From contig JAQYPT010000090.1 in the NCBI GenBank assembly GCA_028726625.1, forward strand, positions 1-64,000: DNA of 64,000 nucleotides, given 5' to 3'. A program made the translations under genes and the position numbers. The notes beneath the pieces were generated by a model, which saw nothing but the letters and a program-made list of their open reading frames with translations, was not told the DNA's origin and ran no database searches. Shown in pieces: positions 50,216 through 53,373 of the stretch; position 1 is the stretch's first letter; every line of letters begins with the position of its first letter. Origin of the DNA: Prevotellaceae bacterium. Its GTDB lineage: Bacteria > Bacteroidota > Bacteroidia > Bacteroidales > Bacteroidaceae.

Positions 50216-51391
50216 ATGATAGACACCATATTATATCAATACATGGAAGAGATGCTTCGGCATACCACCGAGAAGCATTTCAGGTATATCTATGACAAGA
50301 TAGACTGGCGCGCTCGTCTTATAGCCATAACGGGGCCAAGGGGAGTGGGCAAATCTACGATGTTGTTGCAGCATATCAAGAAGCATCGGGAAGACCAACA
50401 CAATCTCTATGTTTCAGCTGATAATCTTTATTTTGCCAATCATCGAATCGTTGAGCTTGCTGATGAGTTTGTAAAAGAAGGTGGAACGCACCTTTATATC
50501 GACGAGATACATAAGTATAGTGGTTGGAGCAGGGAAATTAAGCAAACATACGACGTGCATCCAGCCCTGCACATTGTGTTTACCGGTTCGTCGGTACTTG
50601 ACATCCAGAAAGGTCAGAGCGATTTGAGCAGGAGGGCCGTCGCCTATCATTTGCAAGGGCTGTCTTTCAGGGAGTACCTTCTGTTGTTTCATGACATCCA
50701 CTCGAAAAGTTTCTCTTTGGAAGAAATTTTATCCCATAAAGTTTTTATTGATGAGCTGCCGCACCCACTGCCTCTTTTTAGGGAGTATCTTGCGGCAGGT
50801 TACTACCCATTCTCGTTGGAACCGGGATTTAATCAGCGCATAGACCAAGTGGTGGGACAAACCATAGAGGTGGATGTGGCTCAATACGCTAACTTGCAAC
50901 CCTCGACAGCACGCAAACTTAAACAAATGTTAACCATTGTGGCAGGGTTGGCTCCTTATAAACCCAATTTTGAACATTTGGCCAAGGAGGTAAGTGTGAG
51001 CAAGAATAATGTGCCCGATTATCTCACTCTTCTTGAACGAGCTGGTATGGTGGGACTGTTGCGTGACAATACGGCCGGAATGAGGGCGTTGGGTAAAATA
51101 GAAAAGGTGTACGTGGACAACCCCAATCTGATGACTACACTTCAGGCTGGCAAACCGAACATAGGCAATTTGCGTGAAACATTTTTTTACAACCAGATGA
51201 GAGTAAACCATCAAGTGTTGGCATCCAAGGAGTCGGACTTTTTCGTGTCTCCATACACTTTCGAGATTGGCGGTAGGAAGAAGGGACGCAAGCAGATAGA
51301 AACGGTAGCGGAGGGGCGTATCGTAAAAGACGATATCGAGACAGGACATGGCATCGTGATACCGCTGTGGTATTTTGGTATGAACTATTAA
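50216..51391 (+). CDS. AAA_14/DUF4143-type ATP-binding protein
   Basis: IAITGPRGVGKSTMLLQHI...THLYIDEIHKYSGWSREIKQTYD...VFTGSSVLDI. Confidence 0.92.
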   Translation: MIDTILYQYMEEMLRHTTEKHFRYIYDKIDWRARLIAITGPRGVGKSTMLLQHIKKHREDQHNLYVSADNLYFANHRIVELADEFVKEGGTHLYIDEIHKYSGWSREIKQTYDVHPALHIVFTGSSVLDIQKGQSDLSRRAVAYHLQGLSFREYLLLFHDIHSKSFSLEEILSHKVFIDELPHPLPLFREYLAAGYYPFSLEPGFNQRIDQVVGQTIEVDVAQYANLQPSTARKLKQMLTIVAGLAPYKPNFEHLAKEVSVSKNNVPDYLTLLERAGMVGLLRDNTAGMRALGKIEKVYVDNPNLMTTLQAGKPNIGNLRETFFYNQMRVNHQVLASKESDFFVSPYTFEIGGRKKGRKQIETVAEGRIVKDDIETGHGIVIPLWYFGMNY

Positions 51392-51405: not shown

Positions 51406-52011
51406 ATGTTATACAGAGTTGCTCATCTATTAAGAGACAAATTTCCATGGCTGTGGGATATGATGGGTCTCGTGTTGTCATGGCTGTTTGGGATAAGATA
51501 TGGTAGAAAGTTAAATCAAATCCCTCTGCTGCTGGAAAAATACTCCAATCAGAATACTTTTACCATCCATGTTTTGCATGAAAAGGACGTTCCCGCGTTG
51601 GCAAGGATGTTCAGTGAGCAACCCGAAGAGGCCTTTGAATATTTCAAACCGCATGAATTTACGGAGGAAGCACTAACGAAGTTGGCCAGGGACAAGAGTT
51701 TTCTTGCGTATATTGTCAAGAACGGTGATGCAGTGGTCGGCTATTTCTTTCAGCGTAGTTTCTTTTGGGGGAAGGCGTTTCGCGGATACATAACAGACTA
51801 CCGATGGCGACGCCAAGGCATTAATAAATTGATGAATGAATGTGCGACGGAGATTTCCGAATTCCTTGGACTGCAAGTATTTGGGACGATAGCACCCGAA
51901 AACATCGCTTCGCTCAAATCGGCGGAGACGGCGAATGAGGTGAAAATTATTAAGACGCTTGATAACGGGGATTATTTTGTACAGTACTGTAGGCGAGACT
52001 ACAAAGGATGA
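51406..52011 (+). CDS. GNAT-like N-acetyltransferase (start likely ATG at 51406)
   Basis: FTIHVLHEKDVPALARMFSEQ...GDAVVGYFFQRSFFWGKAFRGYITDYRWRRQGINKLMNE. Confidence 0.75.
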   Translation: MLYRVAHLLRDKFPWLWDMMGLVLSWLFGIRYGRKLNQIPLLLEKYSNQNTFTIHVLHEKDVPALARMFSEQPEEAFEYFKPHEFTEEALTKLARDKSFLAYIVKNGDAVVGYFFQRSFFWGKAFRGYITDYRWRRQGINKLMNECATEISEFLGLQVFGTIAPENIASLKSAETANEVKIIKTLDNGDYFVQYCRRDYKG

Positions 52012-52018
52012 GATTGCT

Positions 52019-52135
52019 TAACTACGAATTTCTCGAATTAAACAAATGATGAGAATTGTTAACTACGAATTTCACGGATTAAACAAATGATGAGAATTGT
52101 TAACTACGAATTTCACGGATTAAACGAATTATTAG
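52019..52135. repeat. 41-bp tandem repeats (taactacgaatttcacggattaaacaaatgatgagaattgt), left flank of GxxExxY gene
   Basis: actacgaatt at 52021, 52062, 52103; two related units with tataggttgac at 52143 and 52180. Confidence 0.9.
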
Positions 52136-52236
52136 TTTGGGCTATAGGTTGACGGATTTCACGAATTAGTATGCTTTGATATAGGTTGACACATTTCGCA
52201 AATTAGTATTAGGGGATTTATTATTAGAGGTTTTAT

Positions 52237-52617
52237 ATGGAAATTGATAAGTTGATTTATGGTAAGGAATCGTATAGAATAATTGGACCCTGTATGGCTG
52301 TGCATCGCGAGTTAGGATTTGGAATGAGAGAAGTGGTTTATGGAGATGCGTTGGAGGAAGAATTCAAATTGCAAGGAATACCCTTTGAACGAGAACACAG
52401 CATGATGGCTGTTTATAAGGGAATAGAACTCAAACATTCTTTTGTTTGCGACTTTATTTGTTACGGTCATATCCTTCTTGAGTTAAAGGCTGAACGAGAA
52501 CTGAATGATATCAATCGTTCCTAGGTAATCAACTATCTGAAAATATCAAAACAACCTCTGGGTCTCTTGATTAATTTTGGCGAGCCTTCATTAAAGTACG
52601 AACGCTACTTATTATAG
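52237..52617 (+). pseudogene. GxxExxY family (PD-(D/E)XK-like) protein interrupted by one in-frame TAG at 52522-52524
   Basis: GFGMREVVY = GxxExxY; CDFICYGHILLELKAE; after TAG the same frame continues VINYLKISKQPLGLLINFGEPSLKYERYLL to a stop at 52617. Confidence 0.88.
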
Positions 52618-52651
52618 CAACATATCTTATTATAGTAGTTCAGAACATTAA

Positions 52652-52754
52652 TCTGTTCAATTCGTAGGTATCTAGCATAATAATTTGAGCAATTCGTGTA
52701 ATTCGTAGTTATTTTCTACCATAATCATTCGTGTCATTTGTGCAATTCGTAGTT
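52652..52754. repeat. Inverted copies of the ACGAATT-type repeat, right flank of GxxExxY gene
   Basis: gttcaattcgtaggta, gagcaattcgtgtaattcgtagtt, gtgcaattcgtagttt = reverse complement of the left-flank motif. Confidence 0.85.
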
Positions 52755-52758
52755 TTAT

Positions 52759-53373
52759 ATGCAATTAAAGTATATATTTGATAAATTCATGTCGCTGTTA
52801 GGTTTAATCGTTCTAAGTCCTGTTTTATTGGTTGTGGCGTGTCTAATCCGCTGGAAAATGCCGGGTGGGTCAGTAATATTCAAGCAGAAGAGAGTAGGAC
52901 AGCATGGTCGGCTGTTCACAGTTTACAAGTTCAGATCGATGACCATTGCCGGCGAAGGCAAAACCTCTATTGCGGCTGCAGAAGAGAGTAGGATTACGCC
53001 TTTGGGAGAAAAACTGAGAAGATATAAATTTGATGAGCTGCCTGAACTCTGGAATGTGCTAAAGGGGGATATGAGCTTTGTCGGACCGCGCCCTGATGTA
53101 CCTGGTTATGCTGACAAATTGAAAGGTGAAGATAGAAACATCCTAAAACTGAAACCTGGCATAACTGGACCTGCAAGTTTGAAATATCGCAATGAGGAAG
53201 AATTATTATCGAATGTTTCCGATCCTATCGCCTACAATAATGATGTGATTTATCCCGATAAAATAAAGCTCAACCTGTATTACTATTATCATTATTCTTT
53301 TGTAAAAGACTTACAGATGATATTCTGTACTGTCGTTGGCAAGAAAATGTGGTATAATGGAGAGATGATTTAG
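52759..53373 (+). CDS. Undecaprenyl-phosphate sugar phosphotransferase (initiating sugar transferase)
   Basis: FDKFMSLLGLIVLSPVLLVVACLIRWKMPGGSVIFKQKRVGQHGRLFTVYKFRSM...DELPELWNVLKGDMSFVGPRPD. Confidence 0.96.
   Translation: MQLKYIFDKFMSLLGLIVLSPVLLVVACLIRWKMPGGSVIFKQKRVGQHGRLFTVYKFRSMTIAGEGKTSIAAAEESRITPLGEKLRRYKFDELPELWNVLKGDMSFVGPRPDVPGYADKLKGEDRNILKLKPGITGPASLKYRNEEELLSNVSDPIAYNNDVIYPDKIKLNLYYYYHYSFVKDLQMIFCTVVGKKMWYNGEMI

Follow-up and report, generated by a model that had tools for sequence, protein, structure and literature searches.

GxxExxY nuclease-like genes between inverted 9-bp-unit arms: an apparently widespread and undescribed kind of intergenic element

Described systems that pair a small gene with inverted repeats

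The RAYT/REPIN system, in which palindromes are spread by a low-copy gene, provides the comparison background for the locus described here (PMC8049555). RAYT is an HUH tyrosine nuclease that acts on REP hairpins, and REPs are tagged with GTAG or CGTC. Other described elements serve for comparison as well. In the 23S rRNA IVS, terminal inverted repeats accompany a small ORF (PMC4990558), and the classical IVS lies within rRNA; MITEs are TIR-flanked, AT-rich, intergenic and lineage-specific (PMC10969869). In Porphyromonas gingivalis, BrickBuilt and 464/PgRS comprise 23- and 41-nt tandem repeats for which no nuclease is mentioned (PMC4596501); their sequences were not compared with those reported below.

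The locus considered here lies in a 64,000-nucleotide stretch of DNA, analysed at its full length and called the window. It holds a gene of the GxxExxY family, whose proteins are common and have no known function. The likeness to REPIN/RAYT lies in a low-copy chromosomal nuclease-like gene between inverted repeats, in the many dispersed palindromes that carry the same ends but no gene (seen in G045, a complete genome, and on contig C99 of the window's own genome), and in the larger number of palindromes in gene-holding genomes. The enzyme differs, however, being of the PD-(D/E)XK type, and 9-bp iteron arms stand in place of tagged REPs. By analogy, the system appears to resemble REPIN/RAYT in function, but it fails the defining enzyme test of that system. 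It also fails at least one defining feature each of IS, IVS and Cas4. With the IVS and with TIGR02436/S23p genes it shares one small ORF between inverted repeats; these encode another protein, their repeats have an 8-bp period with other units and no direct-repeat component, and the GxxExxY genes belong to a nuclease family and have protein genes as neighbours. Terminal inverted repeats, AT-rich intergenic sites and short non-autonomous copies are common to MITEs and IS, whereas GxxExxY elements have no transposase, no evident target duplication, loops that are not gene-derived and arms that are themselves tandem arrays. The fold and the D...E-x-K...QxxxY residues recall Cas4, RecB and lambda exonuclease; unlike Cas4, GxxExxY proteins have about 125 aa and occur with iteron repeats.

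Literature searches by repeat units returned nothing relevant, and the name GxxExxY turned up a single time in each of two papers. Most subscription papers were outside the scope of both searches, so priority cannot be asserted; within that scope, this kind of element is apparently widespread and undescribed.

The module in the capsule locus and its nuclease family

A preliminary description of this DNA had placed a GxxExxY/PD-(D/E)XK-like gene between 41-bp direct repeats and their inverse, and profile scores together with the inverted pairing of the arms bear this out. The left arm array consists of three 41-bp direct repeats (52019..52141, + strand) with start spacings of 41 and 41, each containing the 9-bp-spaced units ACTACGAAT/TTCACGGAT/TAAACAAAT. 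Weaker, degenerate extra copies (TTGACGGATTTCACGAATTAG, TTGACACATTTCGCAAATTAG) follow at 52148..52206 (+). The right arm array (52651..52755, - strand) carries three copies in inverse orientation, ending in ...AATTCGTAG(G/T)T. The arms pair as inverted repeats over 64 nt at 75% and over 31-34 nt at 81-82%. Between them lies the GxxExxY/PDDEXK_3 nuclease-like gene (52237..52617, +; 127 codons including the final stop), which, with an in-frame TAG read through, scores 128.1 bits against TIGR04256 (GxxExxY; cut-off 35) and 116.7 bits against PF13366 (cut-off 22). It is the sole gene between the arms, as a GxxExxY gene is in locus L203, and no transposase was found there; nor was an HUH (Y1) tyrosine transposase, the gene matching PD-(D/E)XK families only. 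The idea of a transposase-free, repeat-borne element is supported, but that the nuclease moves or copies the element remains an inference.

On the left, the insertion boundary is formed by a GNAT-like acetyltransferase gene of the capsule locus (51406..52011, +). On the right, a Bac_transf sugar transferase gene (52759..53373, +) starts 4 bp past the arm, and both neighbours lie outside the element. Just upstream of the GNAT gene, the capsule locus also holds an AAA_14/DUF4143 ATPase gene (50216-51391).

The arm motif ATTCGTGNNATTCGTRG is concentrated at the module. When up to 3 mismatches are allowed, the window holds 13 matches, of which 10 fall at the module; dinucleotide shuffles lead one to expect 3.1, and none of 100 shuffles reached 13. 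A search of the entire 2.70-Mb genome with at most 1 mismatch gave 22 sites and none for the reversed control: 5 at the GxxExxY gene, 12 on contig C99, 3 on contig C101 and 2 single ones. Two of the roughly six clusters lie at a GxxExxY gene (p about 2e-6, binomial, by cluster), the window copy being the only such gene of this genome. Contig C99 carries three tandem palindromes with a spacing of about 117 bp (G000:C99:5171-5483, L024), which are intergenic and without a GxxExxY gene; they share the outer end AACTAC(A/G)AAT of the window module.

While the identity of the window gene stood, its intactness did not. The TAG (52522..52524, +) replaces the glutamine of the QxxxY motif, a residue near-invariant among relatives, in a PD-(D/E)XK site whose D and E-x-K are present. 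The window arms fold no better than shuffles on either side. With its premature stop and with arms that have lost clean hairpin folding, the window copy probably represents a relic, a decayed and dead example of the element.

Across 43 sequences of the family, residues D69, E79-x-K81 and Q93-x-x-x-Y97 do not vary. An AlphaFold model of a GxxExxY protein reaches a pLDDT of 96, and its best Foldseek matches are Cas4 proteins (SSO0001, E=2.6e-4; Pcal_0546, E=5e-3). A lambda-exonuclease-type alkaline exonuclease ranks somewhat lower (E 0.02), and a Cas4 HMM also gives a weak match (E=0.001). Judged from this predicted structure, the protein is nearest to Cas4/RecB-like nucleases. Cas4 has a four-cysteine Fe-S site that is missing here, since only one cysteine (C72) is near-invariant in the 43 sequences. 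Identity with a Holliday-junction resolvase is not claimed, because the fold comparison favoured Cas4 and a PDB sequence search gave only weak matches to T7 endonuclease I (E 0.12). A search of an anti-phage library returned nothing beyond the weak Cas4 match.

Distribution of the layout, the gene-less palindromes and the empty sites

The layout and its specificity, its spread over phyla, the solo palindromes and the presence or absence of modules at orthologous sites are matters of observation. A scan of GTDB genomes revealed at least 580 relatives, and the gene is found in 93 of 150 genomes of the genus, in up to 8 copies. The scan yielded 80 loci, spread over Bacteroidota, Planctomycetota, Verrucomicrobiota, Lentisphaeria, Calditrichota, KSB1, Desulfobacterota, Gammaproteobacteria and one archaeal MAG, with taxa taken from record titles and some MAG assignments uncertain. 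Flanks of 450 bp upstream and 450 bp downstream were compared at 79 loci, including a single viral contig. The expectation that GxxExxY homologues are generally repeat-flanked is met: inverted similarity occurs at 54 of the 79 loci against 1 of 444 same-contig control intervals (Fisher about 1e-52), and similarity of either type at 65 against 11. Inverted arms were not found at this threshold in about a third of GxxExxY loci. For the genus set the figures are 31 of 46 for the loci and 3 of 280 for the intervals. Among other small ORFs of the same contigs, 8 of 162 have inverted flanks, and by sequence three of these eight are further GxxExxY genes and one is a four-helix-bundle gene.

The arms are built of tandem 9-bp units (CACGAATNN, CACGGAANN, CACAGATNN), which read AACCACGGAANNCACGGAANNCACGGAA, AACCACGAAWNNCACGAAW, CCCACAGATTTCACAGAT and similar from the outside in. 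Two to four units of the form CACGRAWNN are repeated, and about 40-50 bp separate arms and gene on both sides. The outer end is often AACC or AGG; by inspection it is AACC, AGG or AAC, and no GTAG or CGTC tag is present. In each taxon group the autocorrelation is highest at 9 bp (0.41-0.53 vs 0.29 in shuffled sequence). Free-standing genes of the four-helix-bundle family TIGR02436, chosen as an unrelated small-gene control, turned out to have inverted short tandem arms in 21 of 29 loci of the genus, with an 8-bp period and different, AAGTTGAC-like units. An inverted-arm layout unique to GxxExxY was therefore rejected; since period and unit differ, the layout is common to both families and the unit family-specific. 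Tandem ACRRA units, forward upstream and reverse downstream, occur at 39 of 134 GxxExxY loci and at none of 29 four-helix-bundle loci or 250 controls. Arm similarity also rises with protein identity, even below 75%, in the genus (Mantel rho 0.35, p 0.0005), in Bacteroidota (0.49, p 0.0005) and in other phyla (0.35, p 0.0045). The four-helix-bundle loci themselves (G000:C48:106485-106808, L258; L249-L278) seem to form a second family with the same plan.

Gene-less palindromes are best seen in the complete genome G045. One of its GxxExxY genes is enclosed by TTTTAGG(CACGGATTA)n ... inverse ... CC. The same arms recur in eight paired palindromes without a gene, with about 15-50 nt between the arms, and in two single arms. 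Two solo palindromes were folded, and both gave near-perfect hairpins (z -14.5 and -16.2); no gene remnants were found in the loops of solo palindromes. The other GxxExxY gene of this genome lies between arms of the CACAGAT type, which is found in palindromes there as well. In a region of about 6 kb (G045:C1:308011-313936, L281), CACAGAT-type and CACGAAT-type palindromes form a dense cluster.

In wider pattern searches, on which all genome-wide counts of solo palindromes rest, the arm motif has 1,907 sites in the 150 genomes of the genus against 53 for the reversed control, and in 20 genomes from other lineages the count for a related motif is 821 against 179. Genomes with a GxxExxY gene have a median of 6 arm motifs and those without have 1 (p = 7e-7, uncorrected for phylogeny). 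By the site counts in the window's own genome and the unit counts given above, the repeats are strongly concentrated at such genes, and the possibility raised at the outset, that they are equally common elsewhere, is not borne out. Arm type and gene do not always go together: a MAG of 85% completeness (G048) carries 14 arms of the G045 type with no GxxExxY gene detected, and two genomes (G129 and G015) hold close homologues of the G045 gene but lack its arm type.

That the module was inserted between two capsule genes, as proposed in the preliminary description, agrees with the state of the locus in relatives. In four of them (G003, G026, G016 and G075) the GNAT gene is directly followed by the sugar transferase gene, with neither GxxExxY gene nor repeats. 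In another genome, G132, the gap that holds the module in the window is likewise filled by a GxxExxY gene, flanked on either side by repeats. This copy is open (126 aa) and encodes the closest relative of the window protein in the compared set (62% identical). Since the flanking proteins of G132 and G003 are 93% and 98% identical, presence of the module differs between near neighbours. The modules at this one site in G132 and in the window's genome (G000) may reflect one old insertion or two. A clean empty site is available for another copy: in G042, the sister species of G045, whose flanks are 94 and 91% identical, an 18-bp spacer stands in place of the gene, both solo sites examined are also empty, and arms of the G045 type have 0 matches against 20 in G045. 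At the place of one G045 palindrome, G042 has an ordinary terminator hairpin. The insertions are precise and intergenic, between stop and start codon. No target-site duplication is evident at the G045/G042 empty sites, a comparison weakened by intergenic divergence. Palindromes of other unit types, at L279:12130-12234 (AATGTTAAATGTTAAGTG) and L279:2888-3048 (GGAAGTTAAGGGAAGTGAGAGG), are likewise present in G045 and missing in its sister.

Spread by the nuclease and competing explanations

Because the layout surrounds most genes of the family and its presence varies between close relatives, the element is seemingly mobile and widespread. The reading preferred here, with a probability of roughly 0.55, is that of a REPIN/RAYT-like system without a transposase, whose minimal Cas4-like nuclease acts upon iteron palindromes and spreads them. 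Under this reading, the elements would form a family of small intergenic units, each with one minimal Cas4/RecB-like PD-(D/E)XK gene between inverted arms of 9-bp units, and the shorter gene-less palindromes with the same arms in the same genomes would be their non-autonomous partners. Most likely the arms would extrude as cruciforms or hairpins, or would be bound as iterons; the nuclease would recognise and nick its own arms in the extruded form, and host replication or repair would then copy the palindrome into new intergenic sites, much as REPINs are spread through RAYT. The GxxExxY gene itself would stay low-copy. Binding and cutting of the arms by the protein, its driving of their spread and mobilisation in trans are all inferred, with no biochemistry and no movement event directly seen. 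Cut-and-paste transposition followed by internal deletion is not favoured, because no clear target duplication was seen and the loops of solo palindromes are not gene remnants. More tentatively, and at somewhat less than even odds, GxxExxY may represent a cross-phylum class of transposase-free mobile elements whose Cas4-like nuclease recognises 9-bp iteron palindromes, maintains itself between them and promotes the spread of those without a gene; the class would be parallel to and independent of RAYT/REPIN, with the four-helix-bundle genes and their 8-bp iterons as a second class.

An endonuclease-only element inserted precisely between stop and start codon, at the same site in two species and rarely duplicated as a full copy within a genome, could also be a homing-type selfish gene. 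Its nuclease would cut element-free sites, either a spacer or a solo palindrome, and host recombination would copy the gene in, so that the arms would serve as homology tracts or as recognition sites, not as the ends of a transposon. This is unlikely, as it leaves unexplained both the 9-bp arms themselves and the solo palindromes at unrelated sites that the sister species lacks. Quite unlikely, too, is a set of ordinary MITEs moved by an unlinked IS transposase, with GxxExxY as a passenger captured by chance. The elements share the TIR-flanked, AT-rich, intergenic and lineage-specific character of MITEs, similar layouts surround four-helix-bundle genes, and no genome-wide search for IS ends was made; but a chance passenger would hardly be one gene family between the same unit type in many phyla, with arm type covarying with the protein, and no clear TSD was found.

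If the arms were regulatory, either as iteron operators through which GxxExxY regulates itself or as bidirectional terminators accumulating in intergenic regions by chance, the distance of about 40-50 bp to the gene on both sides and the terminator hairpin found in G042 would be accounted for. The whole unit, however, is missing at orthologous sites, gene-less copies are dispersed, and such flanks are mostly missing around other small genes, which leaves this explanation improbable. An RNA-level element akin to the 23S rRNA IVS, transcribed as a hairpin that RNase III or the encoded protein would process, finds some support in the shared plan of small ORF and terminal inverted repeats and in the inverted iterons at four-helix-bundle genes of the genus. 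It is nevertheless very improbable, given that GxxExxY elements lie between protein genes and not in rRNA and that the enzyme fold is that of a DNA-type Cas4/RecB nuclease. A known RNA family was also rejected, Rfam giving only a sub-threshold match to HOTAIR_3 that was taken as chance.

The repeat architecture gives GxxExxY proteins a concrete and testable function, and a large number of intergenic palindromes dispersed in bacteria, and in one archaeal MAG, are explained by the link to these genes. Should the nuclease indeed drive their spread as proposed in the preferred, REPIN/RAYT-like reading, it would be a second type of enzyme, after the HUH RAYTs, that maintains populations of palindromic repeats in bacteria, and another role would be suggested for minimal Cas4-like nucleases.

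Phages and plasmids were rejected as the main setting of the family, with 1 relative in 2.9 million viral contigs and 8 in 72,556 plasmid records; 50,697 phage records gave 2 partial matches. A high-copy transposon was likewise rejected, full copies within a genome being divergent paralogues except for local or segmental duplicates. In a MAG labelled Euryarchaeota, the genome of locus L113, three palindromes lie about 470 bp apart (G402:C8:70268-71270); its 113 arm-motif sites stand against 53 for the control, a high control count that calls for caution. At L043:984-1884, the GxxExxY gene is duplicated in tandem, the two nearly identical copies lying head to tail.
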